DNA of 10,830 nucleotides from Spirochaetota bacterium (GTDB taxonomy: Bacteria; Spirochaetota; Spirochaetia; Treponematales; UBA12059), in assembly GCA_029565815.1 (NCBI GenBank), contig JAKQNL010000363.1, forward strand, positions 1 through 10,830. Reading direction: 5' to 3'. A program made the translations under genes and the position numbers. The notes under the pieces were generated by a model. That model was given only the letters and a program-made list of their open reading frames with translations, was not told the DNA's origin and searched no databases. Shown in pieces: positions 3,233-10,830 of this stretch (positions within the stretch are counted from its first letter, which is position 1; every line of letters starts with the position of its first letter).

Positions 3233-4651
3233 TTACGATTCGCGTATGCCCAGACGCTTCATCTGTTCCAATTCTTCCTGCAGGGATAGGTACTCGTGGC
3301 GTTTTTGGTTTGCCTTTACCATGGCTAATTTTATCACGCCAAGCTCCGGACTTGCATTCTTTATCTTGTTTTTCATCTCGGTTGACGAAAGGGCATCCTG
3401 AAAGTATTCGTTGAACGCGCTTGCCCGGCGGAAAAAATTCTGCAGCTCGTCTATGCTTTTTTGCAGGAAGCTGTAGCACTGGTCTTCGGACGCTTCCTCC
3501 AGCCGCGCGTATGCAGAGGAGTTTTTCGCGGCCATCGCATTGAGCGACTGGGCTCGTTTTGCGCCGTCGGTGATGAATGCGGTAAAATCCAGGGTTTCGT
3601 TCCTGCGCTCGCTGGAAACCGGATCCAGGTAATCCACCTCGTGCACCACGTGTTCTGCCTTGTGTCCGAGCATGTCCCGCACGGCGCGCTTTAGCTTGGT
3701 GAAGAACGATTTGTCCAGGGATTCCAAGCTTGCCTGGTTTTCTTCCAGCTTGTGCACCGCGTCGCTCATGGCAAAACCCGCGCCTATGACCAGCCTTGCT
3801 CCTTCGAGCACTATGGCTTTGTAGTTGCGTGCCGTGCCCTGTTTTTTTTGCCCCTGGTTCTTGACGGCAAGCCGGGCAAGCACGGCGTCGCGCAGCGATA
3901 CCGAATCGGATGAATAATCCTCCAGGAGGGTTTCCTCCACCAGTTCTTCGGAAAAGGGCAGGGCGTTGCCAAGTTCTGCGATACGGTTTTTGATCTTCTT
4001 CACGGCGTCGTCGCGGTGGGTAACCACGTAATCCCGCTCCAGGTTCATAGCCTGCGTGACCATGCGCCTGAGTTCCAGTTTGTAGCGCTCCCGGTGCAGG
4101 TCGGACAGCTCCTTGAGCGTCTGGAAAATCCGCTTTATGGATTTTTCCAGCTGCAGCATGGATTCGTTGAGTATGCCCGTGGACAAGGGGTCGGAACCCT
4201 TACGGACTATGCTTACCAATTCGGCAAAGTAGCGGGTGTTGATGTGGGGGCTGGTTTCGGTAAAGTGAACGAAGTTGAAATATTTACCCAGGGCTACCAG
4301 GCGCTTGATGCGGCCCATGGTTAAGAAGTCCACGCTGAACTGGTAGTAGTTGTTGAGGAAGTCCAGGTACGACTCGAACTGGGACAGGCGCATGCACATT
4401 TGGTCCAGCTTTTCGCTTTCCGGAAACGGGGTTTCCGGCGGCAGGCCGACCTCGGAGATTTTCAGCTCGTACTTGTAGGGGTCTTCGTGGATGAGGCCTT
4501 TGCGTAGGAGCACGTTGTACACCGCCTGGTATGCGGTTTGGAACAGCTTGTAATCGTCTTTGAGCTGTTTAAGCTCCGTCCGATCCATGGCTTCGGATTT
4601 TGCCAGGATGGCTTGGTCGAGACGCTCGATGTATGACTGACTTTCTCCCAT
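3233..4651 (-). CDS. Unrecognised 472-residue soluble, helix-rich protein
   Basis: I do not recognise this protein and assign no function. It has no signal peptide and no convincing membrane segment, and it is rich in Glu, Lys, Leu and Arg, so it looks cytoplasmic and mostly helical. Likely coiled-coil stretches are near the N-terminus (from about residue 5 to 40), in the centre (YKLELRRMVTQAMNLERDY and following) and at the C-terminus (SLQEELEQMKRL). A more hydrophobic patch, AIVLEGARLVIGAGFAM, lies about two thirds along and could be a buried helix. No Walker, kinase, nuclease or DNA-binding motif was found. The start is ATG at 4651-4649. An in-frame TAG lies just upstream, so the gene cannot extend further. 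There is no Shine-Dalgarno sequence, and a candidate promoter ends 8 bases before the ATG, which suggests a leaderless transcript. It probably heads the operon that continues into the binding protein 25 bases downstream. It may belong to a lineage-restricted family. Confidence 0.8.
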   Translation of the reverse strand: MGESQSYIERLDQAILAKSEAMDRTELKQLKDDYKLFQTAYQAVYNVLLRKGLIHEDPYKYELKISEVGLPPETPFPESEKLDQMCMRLSQFESYLDFLNNYYQFSVDFLTMGRIKRLVALGKYFNFVHFTETSPHINTRYFAELVSIVRKGSDPLSTGILNESMLQLEKSIKRIFQTLKELSDLHRERYKLELRRMVTQAMNLERDYVVTHRDDAVKKIKNRIAELGNALPFSEELVEETLLEDYSSDSVSLRDAVLARLAVKNQGQKKQGTARNYKAIVLEGARLVIGAGFAMSDAVHKLEENQASLESLDKSFFTKLKRAVRDMLGHKAEHVVHEVDYLDPVSSERRNETLDFTAFITDGAKRAQSLNAMAAKNSSAYARLEEASEDQCYSFLQKSIDELQNFFRRASAFNEYFQDALSSTEMKNKIKNASPELGVIKLAMVKANQKRHEYLSLQEELEQMKRLGIRES

Positions 4652-4695: not shown

Positions 4696-6492
4696 CTATG
4701 AATGTAGTGCTTGTGCTGGTAGCACAATAACGAACACGCTGCCGCCGCCTTCCCTGGCTTCCGCCCGTACGCTGCCCCCGTGGGCATTGCAAATGTGGCG
4801 CACAATGGCCAGCCCCAGACCGGTACCGCCAAGCTCCCTGCTGCGCGCTTTGTCCACGCGGTAAAAGCGCTCGAAGATGCGTGTGCGGTCTTTTTCCGGT
4901 ATGCCCGGCCCCCGGTCGGCAACCGTGAATACGGCGTTGCCCTGTCCGTCGGGCCAGGCTTCGGCTTCCACGATGCCGCCTTGGGGGCCGTAGCGCAGGG
5001 CGTTTTGCATGAGGTTGACCAGGGCTTGTTCCAATAGGCCTGCACTGGCAAGGAGGCGCAATGCCGGGTCGGCTCTAAGGCTTATGGTAGCGCTACGCTC
5101 GGTGGCCATAAGGCTGCAGGTTTCGCTTGCTCGGCTTAGGACTAGGGTTGCAGACACGCTTTCCATGGACAAAGCTGGCCTGTCCCCGTCTTCCAGCGCA
5201 GCCAGGGTCAAGAGGTCCTCAACCATGGCTCCCATGCGTTCGGCGTGGCGGCTGGCTATACCTAAAAAGCGCTGTGCATCCTGTGGGCTTGCGTCCTCCA
5301 GGGCTTCCAAAAAGCCGCGGATAAGGGTAATGGGCGTACGCAGTTCGTGGGATACGTTGGACACGAAGTCGCGTCGCACTTGTTCCAGTTTTTTAAGCCG
5401 GGTTATGTCCGCCAGGGCAAGCACCGCTCCGTGGCGGCCGTCCGGCCAGGCTATGGGCTGGGCCGTTACCAACAGGGTGCGGGTTTCCGGCCCGAAGGCC
5501 AAAAGCTCGCTTTCCTGCCTCTGCGCCTGGAGGGCACATGCTGTTGCAAGCTCGGAAAGGGCAGCATTGCCGCCGGCTTTAAGGATGTGGCTGCCTTCTG
5601 AATCGTTGGCCATGCCAAGGAGAATTTTTGCGCGAGGGTTTGCGCGTATGACAGCTAAGTCCGGGTCTACCGCTATAAGACCTTCACCCAGGGCATCGAG
5701 TATGGCCGATAGCTCCCGGCCTAGGCTTTCGGAGCTTGCAATTCGTTCGGACAGCTCGGCGGCCATAGCGTTGAGCGCGCCGGACAGTTGGTTTAGTTCG
5801 GGGAATTCCGAGCTTGGCGCGCGGGTGTCGAATGCGCCAGAACTCCAGTCCCTGGCCGATGCTGCAAGGCTCGACAGGGGCTTAGACAGCCTCCGCGACA
5901 GGGTAACGGCAGCCCAGGCTGTAAGCACGGCCAAGATGGCAGAACCGACAAGGGATGCTTGGATATAAGGTTGTGCCCGCGCGCGCAGGTCTGGTAGGGC
6001 AAGGGAAAGGCGCAGGGCAGCGGCTATCGATCCGTCTTTGTATACAGGAGCCGCTGCGTACACCATGTCCTGGCCCAGGGTTGACGATGGCCGTATGGCG
6101 GATGCTGGCCGCCCTGCCAGAGCTTGCATCAGTTCCGGGCGGTTTAGATGATTGTCCATGGATGCAGGATCGCCCCTGGAGTCGCCGGCTACCCTACCGT
6201 CTGGCAGTACCAGGCTTACGCGCAAGCCGCTGTCCATGGCGCTTGAATCGCAGAATTCGTCGGCCCGATCAGGGTCTGCAAAGGCGGCCAGGGCGCCTAC
6301 CGTTGCCTCCAGGGAAGACCGGGCACTGTCGCGGTTCAAGCCGGCCATGGCCAGGGCCGCCGGCAGGCCGACCGCTACAAGACCGGCTGTCAGGGTGCCT
6401 AGCACCAGAGCAACAATGCGGGTTGGGAATCCTGCAGGCTTTCGCGATTGCCTGTGCCGAGCCGATCGCCTGGTGTGCGCCGCATGTGTCAC
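4696..6492 (-). CDS. phoR: Phosphate regulon sensor histidine kinase PhoR
   Basis: This 598-residue membrane kinase would autophosphorylate when phosphate is scarce and pass the phosphate to the adjacent PhoB. Start is GTG (6492-6490) in a GTGA overlap with the phoB stop, with GAAGGA 8 bases upstream. Order of parts: basic tail 1-23, membrane segment about 24-50, extracytoplasmic region about 51-178, second membrane segment about 180-198, HAMP linker 199-252, PAS-like domain about 256-365, then the kinase core. H-box SNVSHELRTP places the phospho-accepting His at 382. The N-box is LVNLMQNALRYGP (491-503), G1 is VADRGPGIP (524-532), the F-box is RIFERFYRVD (538-547) and G2 is GGTGLGLAI (555-563). 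All catalytic motifs are intact. The large sensor region of about 130 residues differs from E. coli PhoR, which has almost none, so it may sense something directly. In E. coli, PhoR is held inactive through PstSCAB and PhoU; here PstB and half of PhoU are missing, so that control may be altered. Confidence 0.92.
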   Translation of the reverse strand: MTHAAHTRRSARHRQSRKPAGFPTRIVALVLGTLTAGLVAVGLPAALAMAGLNRDSARSSLEATVGALAAFADPDRADEFCDSSAMDSGLRVSLVLPDGRVAGDSRGDPASMDNHLNRPELMQALAGRPASAIRPSSTLGQDMVYAAAPVYKDGSIAAALRLSLALPDLRARAQPYIQASLVGSAILAVLTAWAAVTLSRRLSKPLSSLAASARDWSSGAFDTRAPSSEFPELNQLSGALNAMAAELSERIASSESLGRELSAILDALGEGLIAVDPDLAVIRANPRAKILLGMANDSEGSHILKAGGNAALSELATACALQAQRQESELLAFGPETRTLLVTAQPIAWPDGRHGAVLALADITRLKKLEQVRRDFVSNVSHELRTPITLIRGFLEALEDASPQDAQRFLGIASRHAERMGAMVEDLLTLAALEDGDRPALSMESVSATLVLSRASETCSLMATERSATISLRADPALRLLASAGLLEQALVNLMQNALRYGPQGGIVEAEAWPDGQGNAVFTVADRGPGIPEKDRTRIFERFYRVDKARSRELGGTGLGLAIVRHICNAHGGSVRAEAREGGGSVFVIVLPAQALHS

Positions 6493-7193
6493 CGGGCGTT
6501 TCCTTCGTCAGCGAAGCGGTAGCCTACGCCGCGCACGGTTTCCACAAGGGAGCCGTATTCGCCCAGCTTGCGCCTTAGTGATACGATCTGTACGTCCACC
6601 GATCGGTCGCTTACCGGATAGTCGCCGCCCTTAACCGAGTCGATGATGGCCGATCGCTCGTACACCCGGCCCGGGTGCCGCATAAGGAGGGCTAAAAGCT
6701 GAAACTCGGTGGCCGACAGATCCACGCGCGTACTGCCGGCCGTTACCTGGTGCATGGCCGGATCCAGCACTATGCCGGATGCGGACAGGATGGTTTTATT
6801 ACTAGCTGGCTCTTCGTGCTGGCTGCGGCGCAGGGCTGTGCGCACACGGGCTACCAGTATCCGCGGGCTGTAAGGTTTAGTTACATAATCTTCTGCGCCC
6901 AGTTCCAGGCCTGTAACCACGTCGGCGTCCTCGCCCTTTGCGCTTGCCATGAGCACCGGCACCAGGCGGGTTTTTTCGTCGGCTTTTATACGCTTGAGCA
7001 CCTGAAGGCCGTCCAGGCCGGGCATCATCACATCCAGGATGATAAGGTCAGGCTTTCGGTTTAAGGCCATGGCAAGGCCTGAGTCCCCATCGGCGGTGGA
7101 AAGCACTTCGTAGCCTTCCTTACCCAGGGTGTAGGACAGAAGCTCGCGTATGTCGGGGTCGTCTTCCACGACCAGTATGCGGGCCTTAGACAT
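6489..7193 (-). CDS. phoB: Phosphate regulon response regulator PhoB (OmpR/PhoB family)
   Basis: This 234-residue DNA-binding regulator is the partner of PhoR. The receiver domain (about 1-120) has the acidic pocket E10-D11-D12, phospho-acceptor D54 in LIILDVMMPG, switch residue S84 and K106 in TKPY. The C-terminal winged-helix domain (about 135-230) has the recognition-helix and wing signatures DRSVDVQIVSLRRKLG and VETVRGVGYRF. I chose the ATG at 7193-7191 (MSKARILVVEDD) because the domain begins there and it lies 2 bases after the stop of the upstream pstA/phoU frame. The frame stays open to an ATG at 7250, but those 19 extra residues overlap the upstream gene and do not belong to the fold. 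The ribosome binding site is weak, so translation may depend on coupling to the upstream gene. It probably binds Pho-box repeats upstream of pstS and autoregulates the operon. Confidence 0.93.
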   Translation of the reverse strand: MSKARILVVEDDPDIRELLSYTLGKEGYEVLSTADGDSGLAMALNRKPDLIILDVMMPGLDGLQVLKRIKADEKTRLVPVLMASAKGEDADVVTGLELGAEDYVTKPYSPRILVARVRTALRRSQHEEPASNKTILSASGIVLDPAMHQVTAGSTRVDLSATEFQLLALLMRHPGRVYERSAIIDSVKGGDYPVSDRSVDVQIVSLRRKLGEYGSLVETVRGVGYRFADEGNAR

Positions 7194-7195
7194 GG

Positions 7196-7504
7196 CTATT
7201 CGTTCAGCTCGCAGTGCTGGCCGGATACCATGAACACCACCGCTTCGCACAAATTGGTTACGTGGTCCCCCAGGCGCTCCAGGTAGTTGGCCGTGGCTAT
7301 GAGTTTGACCGCCTGGCCGGCCTTGTTTGGGTGCTGGCTCAGGTAATCCAGTACATCCTTCACGAACAGGCGGTGTTGTTCGTCCACCTGGTCATCCTGG
7401 GCGGCTGCCTTGCGCGCAAGGGCTTCGTCCCTGCCAAGGTAGGCCTGGATGGCGTCGTGGAGCATGGTTCCGCCCACATCGGCCATGGATTTCAAGGATG
7501 CCAG
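7196..7504 (-). other. phoU: phoU remnant: C-terminal half of PhoU within the fusion frame
   Basis: This part of the fusion frame encodes about 102 residues that align end to end with the second three-helix repeat of PhoU, starting near residue 125-130 of the roughly 240-residue E. coli protein. The conserved metal-site motif E403-R-L-G-D407 (fusion numbering) and a D364-x-x-x-D368 pair are kept. The first PhoU repeat, its start codon and its ribosome binding site are missing. PhoU normally is a two-repeat cytoplasmic protein that links the Pst transporter to PhoR and represses the regulon under high phosphate. The remnant has no plausible independent start with a ribosome binding site, so it would be made only as part of the fusion. 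Confidence 0.8.
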
Positions 7505-8485
7505 GGAGCGGGGGTAAAGGACGGCGCCGGTGAGGATACGGTCCATGCCAGCAGGCAGTACGTGGTGCCAGATGGTCTGCCACTTGCTTGCCCCAACGGC
7601 CAGGGCAGATTGCCTAAGGCTTTGAGGAATGGCCCGCAGGGCTTCCTGGGCATTGATGATGATAACCGGCAGGATTAGGAGGGCAAGCGTTAAGCCTGCG
7701 GACAATATGGTGCGGCCGTTTGCCCCATCGCCAGAACCGAAACCGAAGGCTGCGCCGGATGTGACAGGTTCCAAGGCGCGCACAAAGATGGCCAGGCCGA
7801 GCATGCCGTAGATGATGGACGGAACGCCTGCAAGGTTATAAATATTTACCCTGATGAATCGGTTAAGCCTATTGTCCTTGGCGTATTCCTCGAGCCAAAT
7901 GGCGGCCGCTATGCCCACGGGAAAAGCCAACAGTATGGTAATGAGTATGGTGGACAAGGTTCCGAGTATTGCTGCCCGAATGCCCGCGGCCAAGGGCCTG
8001 GATGATTGTTCCGAGGACAGAAAACGCGGGCTTACCCAGGAGCGGAACACCAGGGTGGATTCCGGAAATCGCTGGGCAGCATCGGCAAACAGCGTGTCGC
8101 GGGCGAAGATGGATTGGAACAGGGGCCAGGTGTATGCAACTTCCGGTTTTACCACTTCGGTATAGGCTATCTCCAAAAGCTCGTCGCGGCTTCGGTCCGC
8201 CAAGGGCATTTCCAAAGCCAACGCCCGCGATCGGCGCGATGACAGGTGTTCGTCCAGGGTCGCAAGGAGCTGTTCCTTGTTCTGTTTGTCCAGTTCTATT
8301 CCGTCGCGTTGTAGGACGGAAGGTTCCACCGAGTTGACCATGGCAACGTAGCCGAAGGCTTCGTCCGCCACGCTTACGATAAGGGTAGCAAGAAAGAGTA
8401 TGCCCACGATGGTTGCTATAAGGAATGCGTTGCGCCAGATGGTTCTTGTTGTGTGGCGCCTGGCCAGTTGGGTGCTTGCGCTCAT
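7196..8485 (-). CDS. In-frame fusion: truncated PstA permease joined to the C-terminal half of PhoU
   Basis: One frame of 429 residues encodes two incomplete proteins. Residues 1 to about 322 are PstA, the phosphate ABC permease: membrane segment 19-41, a long periplasmic loop 42-165, then segments near 171-195, 213-236 and 258-280, followed by the cytoplasmic EAA loop (281-312, QSALAVGASKWQTIWHHVLPAG) that docks the ATPase. After ILTGAVL the expected Arg-Ala-x-Gly-Glu-Thr helix and last membrane segment are absent. From about 328 to 429 the sequence is PhoU second repeat: MLHDAIQAYLGRDEALA, DDQVDE (364-369), YLERLGDHVTNLCE (401-414) and an ending like E. coli PhoU (GQDFRH there, GQHCELNE here). 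No pstB lies between or elsewhere in the window. Start ATG overlaps the pstC stop (ATGA) with GGGAGA 7 bases upstream. Topology is self-consistent: the PhoU half would hang from the membrane on the cytoplasmic side. Transport is probably lost. An assembly join must be excluded. Confidence 0.88.
   Translation of the reverse strand: MSASTQLARRHTTRTIWRNAFLIATIVGILFLATLIVSVADEAFGYVAMVNSVEPSVLQRDGIELDKQNKEQLLATLDEHLSSRRSRALALEMPLADRSRDELLEIAYTEVVKPEVAYTWPLFQSIFARDTLFADAAQRFPESTLVFRSWVSPRFLSSEQSSRPLAAGIRAAILGTLSTILITILLAFPVGIAAAIWLEEYAKDNRLNRFIRVNIYNLAGVPSIIYGMLGLAIFVRALEPVTSGAAFGFGSGDGANGRTILSAGLTLALLILPVIIINAQEALRAIPQSLRQSALAVGASKWQTIWHHVLPAGMDRILTGAVLYPRSLASLKSMADVGGTMLHDAIQAYLGRDEALARKAAAQDDQVDEQHRLFVKDVLDYLSQHPNKAGQAVKLIATANYLERLGDHVTNLCEAVVFMVSGQHCELNE
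7500..7525 (-). other. PstA/PhoU fusion junction (site of the missing pstB)
   Basis: PstA character ends at ILTGAVL (residues 317-323) and PhoU character is clear from about residue 328 (LASLKSMADVGGTML). The join therefore lies within about 25 bases here. From usual family sizes, about 70-80 residues of PstA, the whole ATPase of about 250 residues and about 110-130 residues of PhoU are missing, that is roughly 1.3-1.4 kb. No insertion sequence, repeat or scar is visible at the join. Confidence 0.7.
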
Positions 8486-9399
8486 TCGTAGGTCTCCCGG
8501 TATTTGTTGACGATGCGCCTGGAAACCATGTTAAGCGCAAGTGTTGCTAGAAACAGCACCATGGCTATGGCAAAGAGGCTGCGGTAGTCTACCGAGTCGT
8601 AGGACAGGTCTCCGCCAGATATCCGCACGATGTGTCCGGTCATGGTTTCTGCCGACTTGAATGGGTTGAGTGTAAAGCGGGGGCCTGCGCCTGCGGCCAG
8701 GGCGACTATCATCGTTTCGCCAACCGCCCGCGACAGGGCCAGTATGAATGCAGCCGCTATGCCGGAGAACGCCGCCGGCACCACCACCTGTACGCTGGTT
8801 TCCAGCCTGGTGGCGCCAAGAGCATAGGATGCCTCGCGCAGGCTCCTCGGTACCGCGGACAGGGCATCCTCGCACATAGAGCTTACCAAAGGCAGTATGA
8901 GTATGCCCATGACCAGGCCTGCCGACAGGGTGTTGTATACGTCCACCGTGTCTGCTCCAAGTACGCCGCGCAAGAGGGGCGTAACCACAGTTAATGCAAA
9001 GTAACCGTATACGACGGTAGGAATGCCTGCAAGCACTTCAAGTATTGGCTTGAGCGTGTCGCGCACTTTTTGCGGCGCGTATTCGGCCAGGTAGATAGCA
9101 ACCATCAGGCCCAAAGGCAGGGCTACGAGCATTGCAGCAAGGCTTGTGGTGATGGTTGCCGTAAGCAGGGGCAGTATGCCGAACTTGCCTATGGCCGGTT
9201 GCCACTCGGTGCCGGATACGAACTCCCACAGGCTTACATCCTTAAAGAATGTGCTCGATTCGTTTCCAAGCACCAGCGCGATGCCCAGGGTGGTAAGCAC
9301 GGAAACTGCGGCGCAGAAAAACAGAAAGGCCTGGACGATAGCCTCGCCCGGCCTGGCCCTGCGTTTGAACGGATGATCGGCAGGTGCTGTTTGCTTCAT
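8482..9399 (-). CDS. pstC: Phosphate ABC transporter permease PstC
   Basis: This 305-residue inner-membrane protein is one of the two permease subunits of the high-affinity phosphate importer. Membrane segments are expected near residues 21-45, 78-104, 118-141, 158-178, 210-235 and 275-295, the six typical of PstC. The EAA loop (about 180-209, SVPRSLREASYALGATRLET and VVVPAA) would contact the ATPase, and the RAVGETM signature (224-230) of PstC is present. Length is normal (E. coli PstC is 319), so unlike its partner it is intact. I prefer the ATG at 9399-9397: it gives a natural N-terminus (MKQTAPADHPFKRR) and has GGAAAG/GCGAG purine-rich sequence just upstream. An in-frame ATG at 9423 adds 8 residues but has no ribosome binding site. 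The stop overlaps the next start (ATGA). A hairpin element separates it from pstS and could lower its expression relative to pstS. Confidence 0.93.
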   Translation of the reverse strand: MKQTAPADHPFKRRARPGEAIVQAFLFFCAAVSVLTTLGIALVLGNESSTFFKDVSLWEFVSGTEWQPAIGKFGILPLLTATITTSLAAMLVALPLGLMVAIYLAEYAPQKVRDTLKPILEVLAGIPTVVYGYFALTVVTPLLRGVLGADTVDVYNTLSAGLVMGILILPLVSSMCEDALSAVPRSLREASYALGATRLETSVQVVVPAAFSGIAAAFILALSRAVGETMIVALAAGAGPRFTLNPFKSAETMTGHIVRISGGDLSYDSVDYRSLFAIAMVLFLATLALNMVSRRIVNKYRETYE

Positions 9400-9434
9400 G
9401 GAACTCGCTTTCCGTAGAGGCATCTAGGATTTTT

Positions 9435-9615
9435 GCCACGGAGACGCAGAGAGCACAGAGATGCGGGGGTGGAAGGGGGAAGTTTCCCCCTCGCTCCGAA
9501 AGTCCGGCGACGCCGGACGTTTCTTCTCTACCCCCTCGCCGGGGGATACCCCCGGACCCCTGCGGCGCTCCGCACTGCTCGCGCCGCATCTCCGTGGTCT
9601 CCGTGCCTCTGCGGC
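9435..9615. repeat. Intergenic hairpin-rich repeat element with imperfect 32-bp inverted ends
   Basis: The left end (9435-9466) and right end (9584-9615) are inverted copies matching at 25 of 32 positions. They carry the 'ccacggagac-cagag' type motif that recurs between genes in many bacterial genomes. When read as minus-strand RNA (the pst transcript), four of the seven mismatches become G-U pairs. Inside are further hairpins: 9475-9490 (7-bp arms, GT centre), 9502-9518 (7-bp arms, 3-base loop), 9539-9555 (7-bp arms, 3-base loop) and 9561-9574 (5-bp arms, 4-base loop). It begins about 7 bases after the pstS stop and ends about 36 bases before the pstC start, so it nearly fills the gap. It encodes no protein I would believe. 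It resembles a miniature non-coding mobile or REP-like element. In the minus direction it lacks a U-run, so it is more likely an mRNA stabiliser or partial attenuator than a simple terminator; on the plus strand it is followed by a T-rich run (9616-9624). Confidence 0.8.
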
Positions 9616-9622
9616 TTGTTTT

Positions 9623-10597
9623 TTAATACCTGCCCTTAACGGCAGCGCGCCAGGCTTCCTTGGCTTTTTTTATCTCGGCGGCCGGGGCGGGGAAGTAGCC
9701 CACTTCCTTGAGCGCTTCGGCAACGTAGGTAAGGTAGTAGGCTATGAATGCAGCTACCTGGGGTTTGTCGTTCATGATCTTCGCATCGCTATAAACGAAG
9801 ATGGGCCGAGCAAGGGGGTAGCTTCCCTTGTCCACGTTGGCTGCGTTCGCGGCTACACCGTCGATGGACAGAACGTTCAGCTTGGCCTTGTTTTCCATAT
9901 AGTAAGCGAAACCGAAGTAGCCGATGGCGTACTGGTCATCCGCAACGCCGCGAACCAGCACGTTGTCGTCCTCGGACAGCTGCAGATTGCGGGCGGACAG
10001 GAGCGGTGCCTTGTCCTTCTTGAACAGGTGCTCAACAAAGTAGGTAAAGGTGCCGGAGTCGGTGCCCGGGCTAAAGCGCTTGATTTCCTTCTTGGGCCAG
10101 GAAGCGCGAACGTCGGACCAGTATACGGCGGTGGAGAAAGCAAGCTTAAGCTCGGCCTGGGTAATGTCCTTGGCAAAGGTGTTGCTCTTACTGACAACCA
10201 CGGCCAGGGCGTCGGTGCCGATGCGGAACTCGATGGGCGTGCGGCCTATGGCTTTTGCCCAATCGATCTGGGTTGCGCTAATGGCAACGGACGCGTTGGC
10301 TATGTCGGTTTCGCCGGCTTTTGCCCAGCGCTCAAAACCGGCGCCAGAGCCTATGGAGTCGATGGTAACTTGTCCGGCAAAGCCGTCTTCCTTAAACATG
10401 GAAACGATGGCTTCGGAAACCGGGTACACGGTGGAGCTGCCGGCGGTGATGACGGTGCCGGTAACCTTGCTGGGGTCGATACCGGGCAGGAGCTTGTCCG
10501 GGTCATCGCTGGTTTTTGCTATCCAGGTGAACATGCCCTGGGCAAAAGCGCTCGTGGCAGCCAGGGCCAACAGGCCGATAAGTACTGTCTTCTTCAT
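9623..10597 (-). CDS. pstS: Periplasmic phosphate-binding protein PstS
   Basis: This 324-residue exported protein captures inorganic phosphate and hands it to the PstCA channel. The start is ATG at 10597-10595 with GGAGG 8 bases upstream. It opens with a textbook signal peptide, MKKTVLIGLLALAATSAFAQ, with likely cleavage after AFA and no lipobox cysteine. The phosphate-binding loops are visible: TAGSSTVYP (51-59), GSGAGFER (83-90) and SPGTDSGTFTYF (176-187). The DQYAIGYFGFAYY segment (221-233) is also characteristic. Length is normal for PstS. The frame remains open upstream to 10801, but the extra residues lack any secretion logic and cross the regulatory region. It is the first gene of the operon and is followed by a hairpin element, an arrangement that would favour high PstS levels. 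Confidence 0.95.
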   Translation of the reverse strand: MKKTVLIGLLALAATSAFAQGMFTWIAKTSDDPDKLLPGIDPSKVTGTVITAGSSTVYPVSEAIVSMFKEDGFAGQVTIDSIGSGAGFERWAKAGETDIANASVAISATQIDWAKAIGRTPIEFRIGTDALAVVVSKSNTFAKDITQAELKLAFSTAVYWSDVRASWPKKEIKRFSPGTDSGTFTYFVEHLFKKDKAPLLSARNLQLSEDDNVLVRGVADDQYAIGYFGFAYYMENKAKLNVLSIDGVAANAANVDKGSYPLARPIFVYSDAKIMNDKPQVAAFIAYYLTYVAEALKEVGYFPAPAAEIKKAKEAWRAAVKGRY

Positions 10598-10669
10598 TCG
10601 GTATTCCTCCGTATAGTAAACGTTACGGAAAGAACATACGCGCCTCGGATAAGGGCTGTGCAAGAAGAT

Positions 10670-10686
10670 TGTTAGGATTGTGTTAA
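10670..10686 (-). promoter_or_regulatory. Pho-box-like direct repeat upstream of pstS
   Basis: On the minus strand TTAACA (10686-10681) and CTAACA (10675-10670) are separated by 5 bases, an 11-bp period. That matches the spacing of PhoB/PhoP binding repeats; Bacillus PhoP uses TTAACA-like hexamers. A third in-phase hexamer at 10664-10659 (CTTGCA) is a weak match. The site lies about 75-90 bases before the pstS ATG, and a phoB gene is in the same operon. I cannot fix the -10 element: TATGTT follows a TTGCAC hexamer at a 19-base spacing, which is long. No half of the E. coli-type CTGTCAT pair is repeated, although one CTGTCA occurs further upstream (near 10735). Confidence 0.45.
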
Positions 10687-10792
10687 AAACCTCTCCAGGC
10701 ACTGCTCGCAATTGTGCCTCCTTCATTATTGACAGATTAGCATTGAGGTACGACGCTTCTGCTATCTTTTCGATACCTAAAAGGGGTGCTTT

Positions 10793-10830
10793 ATGAAACA
10801 TGTCGTACGTGTGCTGGCTTTATTTGCACT
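10793..10830 (+). CDS. Start of a divergent gene, probably exported (partial)
   Basis: Only the first 12 codons are in the window (MKHVVRVLALFA). ATG is preceded by AAGGGG with a 6-base spacer, a good ribosome binding site. A short basic start followed by hydrophobic residues is typical of a signal peptide or membrane anchor. The product cannot be named. It is divergent from pstS across a 195-bp gap (10598-10792) that holds the Pho-box-like repeat, so it could share phosphate control. A TGCTATCTT extended -10-like sequence (10760-10768) lies about 25 bases before the ATG. Confidence 0.6.
   Translation, partial: MKHVVRVLALFA

Follow-up and report, generated by a model that had tools for sequence, protein, structure and literature searches.

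Has an uncultured spirochaete lost the ATPase of its Pst phosphate importer and joined what was left of the permease to half of PhoU? The window, the whole stretch of 10,830 nt that was analyzed, is contig C299; the draft genome from which it comes totals 1,946,444 bases, spread over 452 contigs, and is 67.33% complete. On its minus strand, the window carries, in order, pstS, pstC, a fused ORF, phoB, and phoR (Table 1), followed by three further ORFs: the first has no Pfam match above threshold, the second encodes a family-5 solute-binding protein, and the third has no Pfam match at all. The ten best-matching named loci all come from metagenome bins of the Spirochaetes/Spirochaetales type, and many of the lower-ranked ones are Chloroflexi.

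Table 1. Features of the phosphate locus, in window positions
Feature	Position	Strand	Evidence
Fused ORF: truncated PstA plus second PhoU repeat, 429 aa	7196..8485	-	ORF list, Pfam, BLASTP, NCBIfam
PstA part, residues 1-323; stops after EAA-type cytoplasmic loop	7517..8485	-	Pfam, BLASTP, alignment
Join: PstA codon 323 CTT / PhoU-derived codon TAC	7516..7517	-	BLASTP, comparison with relatives
PhoU second repeat, residues 324-429 plus stop	7196..7516	-	Pfam, NCBIfam, comparison with relatives
pstC, intact; 4-nt overlap with fused ORF start	8482..9423	-	ORF list, Pfam, alignment
pstS, ORF as listed; start common to relatives is Met69	9623..10801	-	ORF list, Pfam, alignment
phoB response regulator; ATG at 7193, two bases past fused stop; listed ORF starts upstream at 7250	6489..7193	-	ORF list, Pfam, BLASTP
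phoR histidine kinase with HAMP, PAS, HisKA, and HATPase_c domains	4696..6492	-	ORF list, Pfam, BLASTP

What does the fused frame encode? Its 429 codons contain no internal stop. In Pfam, BPD_transp_1 covers residues 189-323 but breaks off at position 116 of its 184-position profile; a single complete PhoU domain follows, at residues 331-416. In BLASTP against relatives, PstA homology stops at residue 323 in each of the four loci whose PstA match is long, and PhoU homology begins at residue 324 in five of five, which places the join between window positions 7517 and 7516. Looser HMMER and tblastn PstA matches often extend to residue ~338-342 and alone would blur this point. In NCBIfam, the PstA model TIGR00974 reaches profile position 192 of 272 at 175.4 bits, under its cut-off of 193.45 (the intact PstA P0002 scores 239.3 bits). 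The PhoU model TIGR02135 matches at positions 114-211 of 212 only, with 81.7 bits against a cut-off of 130.25; the intact PhoU P0162 has two PhoU repeats and scores 214 bits. The PhoU half corresponds to residues 114-219 of this 219-aa protein at 87.7% identity. The fusion thus has neither the full BPD_transp_1 domain of the PstA family nor more than one of the two repeats of the PhoU family, and, because it falls below the curated cut-offs of both parents, we call it neither PstA nor PhoU. The initial annotation had read one open frame running through PstA to the EAA loop and on into the second half of PhoU, with the join within 7500-7525, the fused frame still coupled to phoB, and the neighboring genes in the order and strand given above; Pfam, BLASTP, NCBIfam, and the ORF list bear this out.

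Set beside PstA (TIGR00974; E. coli PstA, PDB 9k3s chain A), the first 323 residues of the fusion are alike, with P0002 as the nearest listed intact relative, but the segment after the EAA loop is missing. With it have gone the last membrane helices and the equivalent of E. coli Arg220 (R220), which aligns with the P0002 segment just past the join point. Set beside PhoU (TIGR02135; PDB 1xwm and 1t72), the fusion has a complete second repeat with the ERLGD motif but lacks the first repeat.

How much DNA is missing, and did an ancestor possess it? An otherwise normal operon lacks the end of PstA, pstB in its entirety, and the first PhoU repeat, as had been claimed; Pfam and NCBIfam coverage agree, and the 10,830-nt window holds no PstB frame. 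In relatives, the interval between the equivalent points contains pstB, flanked by the remainder of pstA and the first half of phoU. It measures 1416-1476 nt in the nine locus rows with PstA identity of at least 60%, so that the in-frame deletion proposed by the initial annotation fits the intact operons of relatives, while its proposed size of 1.3-1.4 kb was slightly low. Across 43 rows (selected for a PstA match that has >45% identity, is >200 residues long, and extends to residue 320, plus a PhoU match whose start falls within the first four residues), the interval ranges from 1373 to 2636 nt; these rows include some distant loci with doubtful PhoU points and some places fetched twice (e.g., L008, L029, and L032). 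In G001, a same-genus genome that is 57% complete, a single contig carries the pstA end together with pstB, phoU, phoB, and phoR, and the PstB scores 384.3 bits to TIGR00972, over the cut-off. Within the family, 20 of 23 genomes, counting the source genome, have a PstB over the cut-off; those without are the source genome, G003, and G005. Because relatives keep pstA-pstB-phoU, and G001 keeps the pstA end, pstB, and phoU, sequence comparison supports a probably intact ancestral operon that lost ~1.4 kb.

Are the missing proteins encoded elsewhere? The source genome, 67% complete, has no PstB over the TIGR00972 cut-off and 31 weaker ABC matches. Searched with the same-genus PstB, it gives a best-scoring match of 34% identity; the top identity is 42% over 69 residues. 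The best TIGR00972 match, on C444 (209.9 bits, under the cut-off), was rejected as PstB because it scores higher on amino-acid ABC ATPase models (312.1 bits to TcyN and 284.5 to GlnQ, both under those models' own cut-offs). The PstB that defines a PstSCAB importer is thus found neither in the operon nor in the 67% of the genome that is represented. The same genome contains no second copy of the pst locus, and its only other PhoU-family match is the PhoU-like tail (PF01895) of a Na/Pi cotransporter (PF02690) on C435 (1298-2968; L004), a possible alternative phosphate route. A Pit transporter (PF01384) was not found in it. These searches went the way that the claimed loss of pstB predicts; with one third of the genome missing, the absences of pstB and PhoU are suggestive only.

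Does the fusion occur anywhere else? Among ~5.8 billion proteins, it forms a cluster of its own, with one member sequence on two contigs (the longest of 10830 bases) that may not be independent. The window's exact PhoR is listed on one contig only, which suggests that the second contig bearing the fused protein is not a plain copy of the window contig; the PhoR cluster comprises six member sequences, which means that other data contain close alleles. Our protein search, which scored only the 8000 candidates sharing most words, returned 7583 matches. Among the best 120 of these, the next match is P0002 (listed at 80% identity over 81% of the query; 85.8% when the first 323 residues are compared), and none is an intact PstA closer than P0002, so no same-species intact allele was seen. 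No match spanned both halves in 38 relatives or in the 41 other genomes of the class that had a match of E 1e-60 or better (247 others searched). The DNA around the join matched one side or the other in 7 of 295 other genomes of the phylum and was matched across the join in none, with G010 matching both sides at two separate places; these three genome sets overlap. We found no paper describing a PstA-PhoU fusion in a literature search that left most subscription journals outside.

Did the join, known here from assembled sequence alone, form in a cell? It may instead be that pstA and phoU were brought together by a chimera formed in library preparation or amplification, or by the abutting of contig ends during assembly or gap removal, and that living cells keep an intact operon. 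We consider such an artifact a strong rival, short of even probability. The high fragmentation of the genome and the confinement of the fusion to one of the genomes examined favor it, as does the G001 contig, which likewise starts inside pstA, ~13 residues before the join point. The listing of the exact fused protein on two contigs, possibly not independent, speaks against it, as does the lack of any closer intact PstA among the best 120 matches.

The bases at the join bear on both possibilities. Immediately after the join point, P0002 and the other relatives printed have Ala (GCN) in nearly all rows and Ser in a few, where the fused gene has TAC; immediately before it, P0162 and near relatives have Pro (CCN), where the fused gene has CTT. 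If Ala and Pro are ancestral, the two sides would share at most about one base. Because there appears to be almost no homology at the join, collapse over a long repeat is unlikely, and a repeat-mediated deletion is likewise disfavored by the relatives' sequences, which offer no homology of k-mer length. A repeat scan of 7100-10830 detected no direct repeat at the join, the scan being blind to repeats shared with the lost DNA. Assembly graphs should not collapse over sequences sharing about one base, which counts against that form of artifact, but ligation chimeras also give almost homology-free joins. The remaining routes are nonhomologous joining in the cell and a chimeric molecule or contig join.

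How old could a genuine deletion be? The PstA part has a mean identity of 59.9% to 118 other listed PstA proteins, versus 60.0% for P0002, and the PhoU half 55.2% to 117 other listed PhoU proteins (2 of 119 were dropped by a length and pairing filter), versus 57.0% for P0162, a gap of about two residues. The flanking pstS, pstC, phoB, and phoR align without large internal gaps, PstC and PstS over their conserved length. An 8-aa gap in PstC relative to four relatives was set aside as a sign of decay, because it lies in the variable N terminus. Since neither half is clearly accelerated and there is no long decay, the deletion is either young or not real, and both observations also favor an artifact. 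A long-standing new function is not arguable from these constraint data. Among the 120 matches listed per search, the nearest are P0002 for the PstA part and P0162 for the PhoU half. The two look like one sister lineage, P0162 and a related PhoR, P0242, each being listed on contigs of 3805 bases. A chimera across species is unlikely, because both halves have their nearest listed relative at similar identity (85.8 and 87.7%), pointing to one lineage.

The locus is best explained, in our view, by a young loss-of-function deletion of pst genes in one lineage, which we hold to be somewhat probable; that the deletion is real at all, whether a plain loss of function or a working fusion, is the broader claim and a fairly probable one. 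A recent, illegitimate deletion of ~1.42 kb in one spirochaete lineage would have eliminated pstB together with the end of pstA and the first half of phoU. The Pst importer would then be dead, its ATPase gone and its permease truncated. The PhoU-PstB link that makes PhoR a phosphatase would be lost, PhoR would stay kinase-on, and the Pho regulon would be expressed constitutively. Phosphate would enter by another route, for example, the Na/Pi cotransporter of the same genome. The fused product, if made and stable, would be a four-helix membrane stub with a folded half-PhoU in the cytoplasm and no necessary function.

How does this compare with known mutants? E. coli PhoU binds PstB and PhoR (PMC4423584), deleting any one transporter gene or phoU leaves PhoR kinase-on (PMC5775613), and pst-phoU mutations generally lead to constitutive Pho expression (PMC3511308); changing R220 of E. 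coli PstA blocked transport but not signaling (PMC5775613). The locus resembles the PHO-constitutive pst-phoU mutants of E. coli in that Pst genes are lost, phoB and phoR are intact, and PhoR is expected to be kinase-on; it differs in being an in-frame chimera in an uncultured spirochaete, with a phenotype predicted from sequence. If the deletion is real, pst function would have been lost naturally, in a lineage outside the laboratory that retains PhoB-PhoR, offering a direct way to ask whether a single PhoU repeat held at the membrane has any effect. If the join is an artifact, the lesson is that an in-frame join in a draft metagenome bin can mimic a new domain architecture.

Might the fusion itself work? 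The PstA stub would anchor half-PhoU at the membrane, where it could still act on PhoR independent of PstB; we consider this improbable. The frame is kept, its start overlaps pstC by 4 nt, and its stop lies two bases from phoB, but any join of two open frames stays in frame one time in three by chance. An AlphaFold2 model of the fused protein, built from a 56-sequence alignment, has a mean pLDDT of 84.5 and a pTM of 0.53. It contains four helices of membrane length (residues 3-43, 164-201, 221-242, and 257-284); because these precede half-PhoU, and given the EAA loop and the usual topology, half-PhoU is predicted to sit on the cytoplasmic side. For the PhoU half (residues 331-429), the model gives a confident bundle of helices with block pLDDT 88-98, which favors a working protein. 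Against it, the PstA core after truncation is poorly predicted (block pLDDT 61-79 over residues 221-300), and the join stretch, residues 318-322, falls below a pLDDT of 50. E. coli PstA and several PhoU structures head the PDB fold matches to the model, none reaching an E-value of 0.001. Also on the favorable side, 1vct (titled as potassium-channel related) and 2bkn (of unknown function) align with the model over 98 columns at 2.3-2.4 Å, their E-values (0.23 and 0.30) being weak; each presumably holds a single PhoU-like repeat.

Transporters with PhoU tails do exist, namely, Na/Pi cotransporters (PMC13170248), of which C435 in the source genome is one. Like the fusion, these proteins (PF02690 plus PF01895) are membrane phosphate transporters ending in a PhoU domain; however, their permease is unrelated and their architecture is established, whereas the fusion carries half an ABC permease. 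PhoU normally has two repeats, the fusion is seen in the source genome only, and the identity comparisons reveal no distinct selective regime, all of which weigh against a working fusion. That a real, expressed, membrane-anchored half-PhoU controls PhoR without PstB is very improbable; if true, either one membrane-held PhoU repeat would suffice to signal phosphate sufficiency, or it would lock the Pho regulon in one state. A new signaling protein has nothing in its favor apart from the open frame and the foldable half-PhoU, and the signaling relic and the adaptation to high phosphate proposed by the initial annotation are conjectures that gained no support from the sequence analysis.

Other features of the window lie outside the fused gene. 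A promoter and terminator scan gave counts near the shuffled expectation. The pstS-pstC spacer (9424-9622) contains a 32-nt imperfect inverted repeat, 78% complementary, with arms at 9435-9466 and 9584-9615; because parts of the spacer recur in the same genome, at C176:4-75 (90%) and C419:806-930 (78%), it may be a small dispersed element. The 472-aa ORF adjoining phoR (3233-4651) stays below the Pfam cut-offs (for COG2p_C, 24.6 bits against 27) and is a conserved neighbor, ~62% identical in G018 and G022, where it lies in the same neighborhood.
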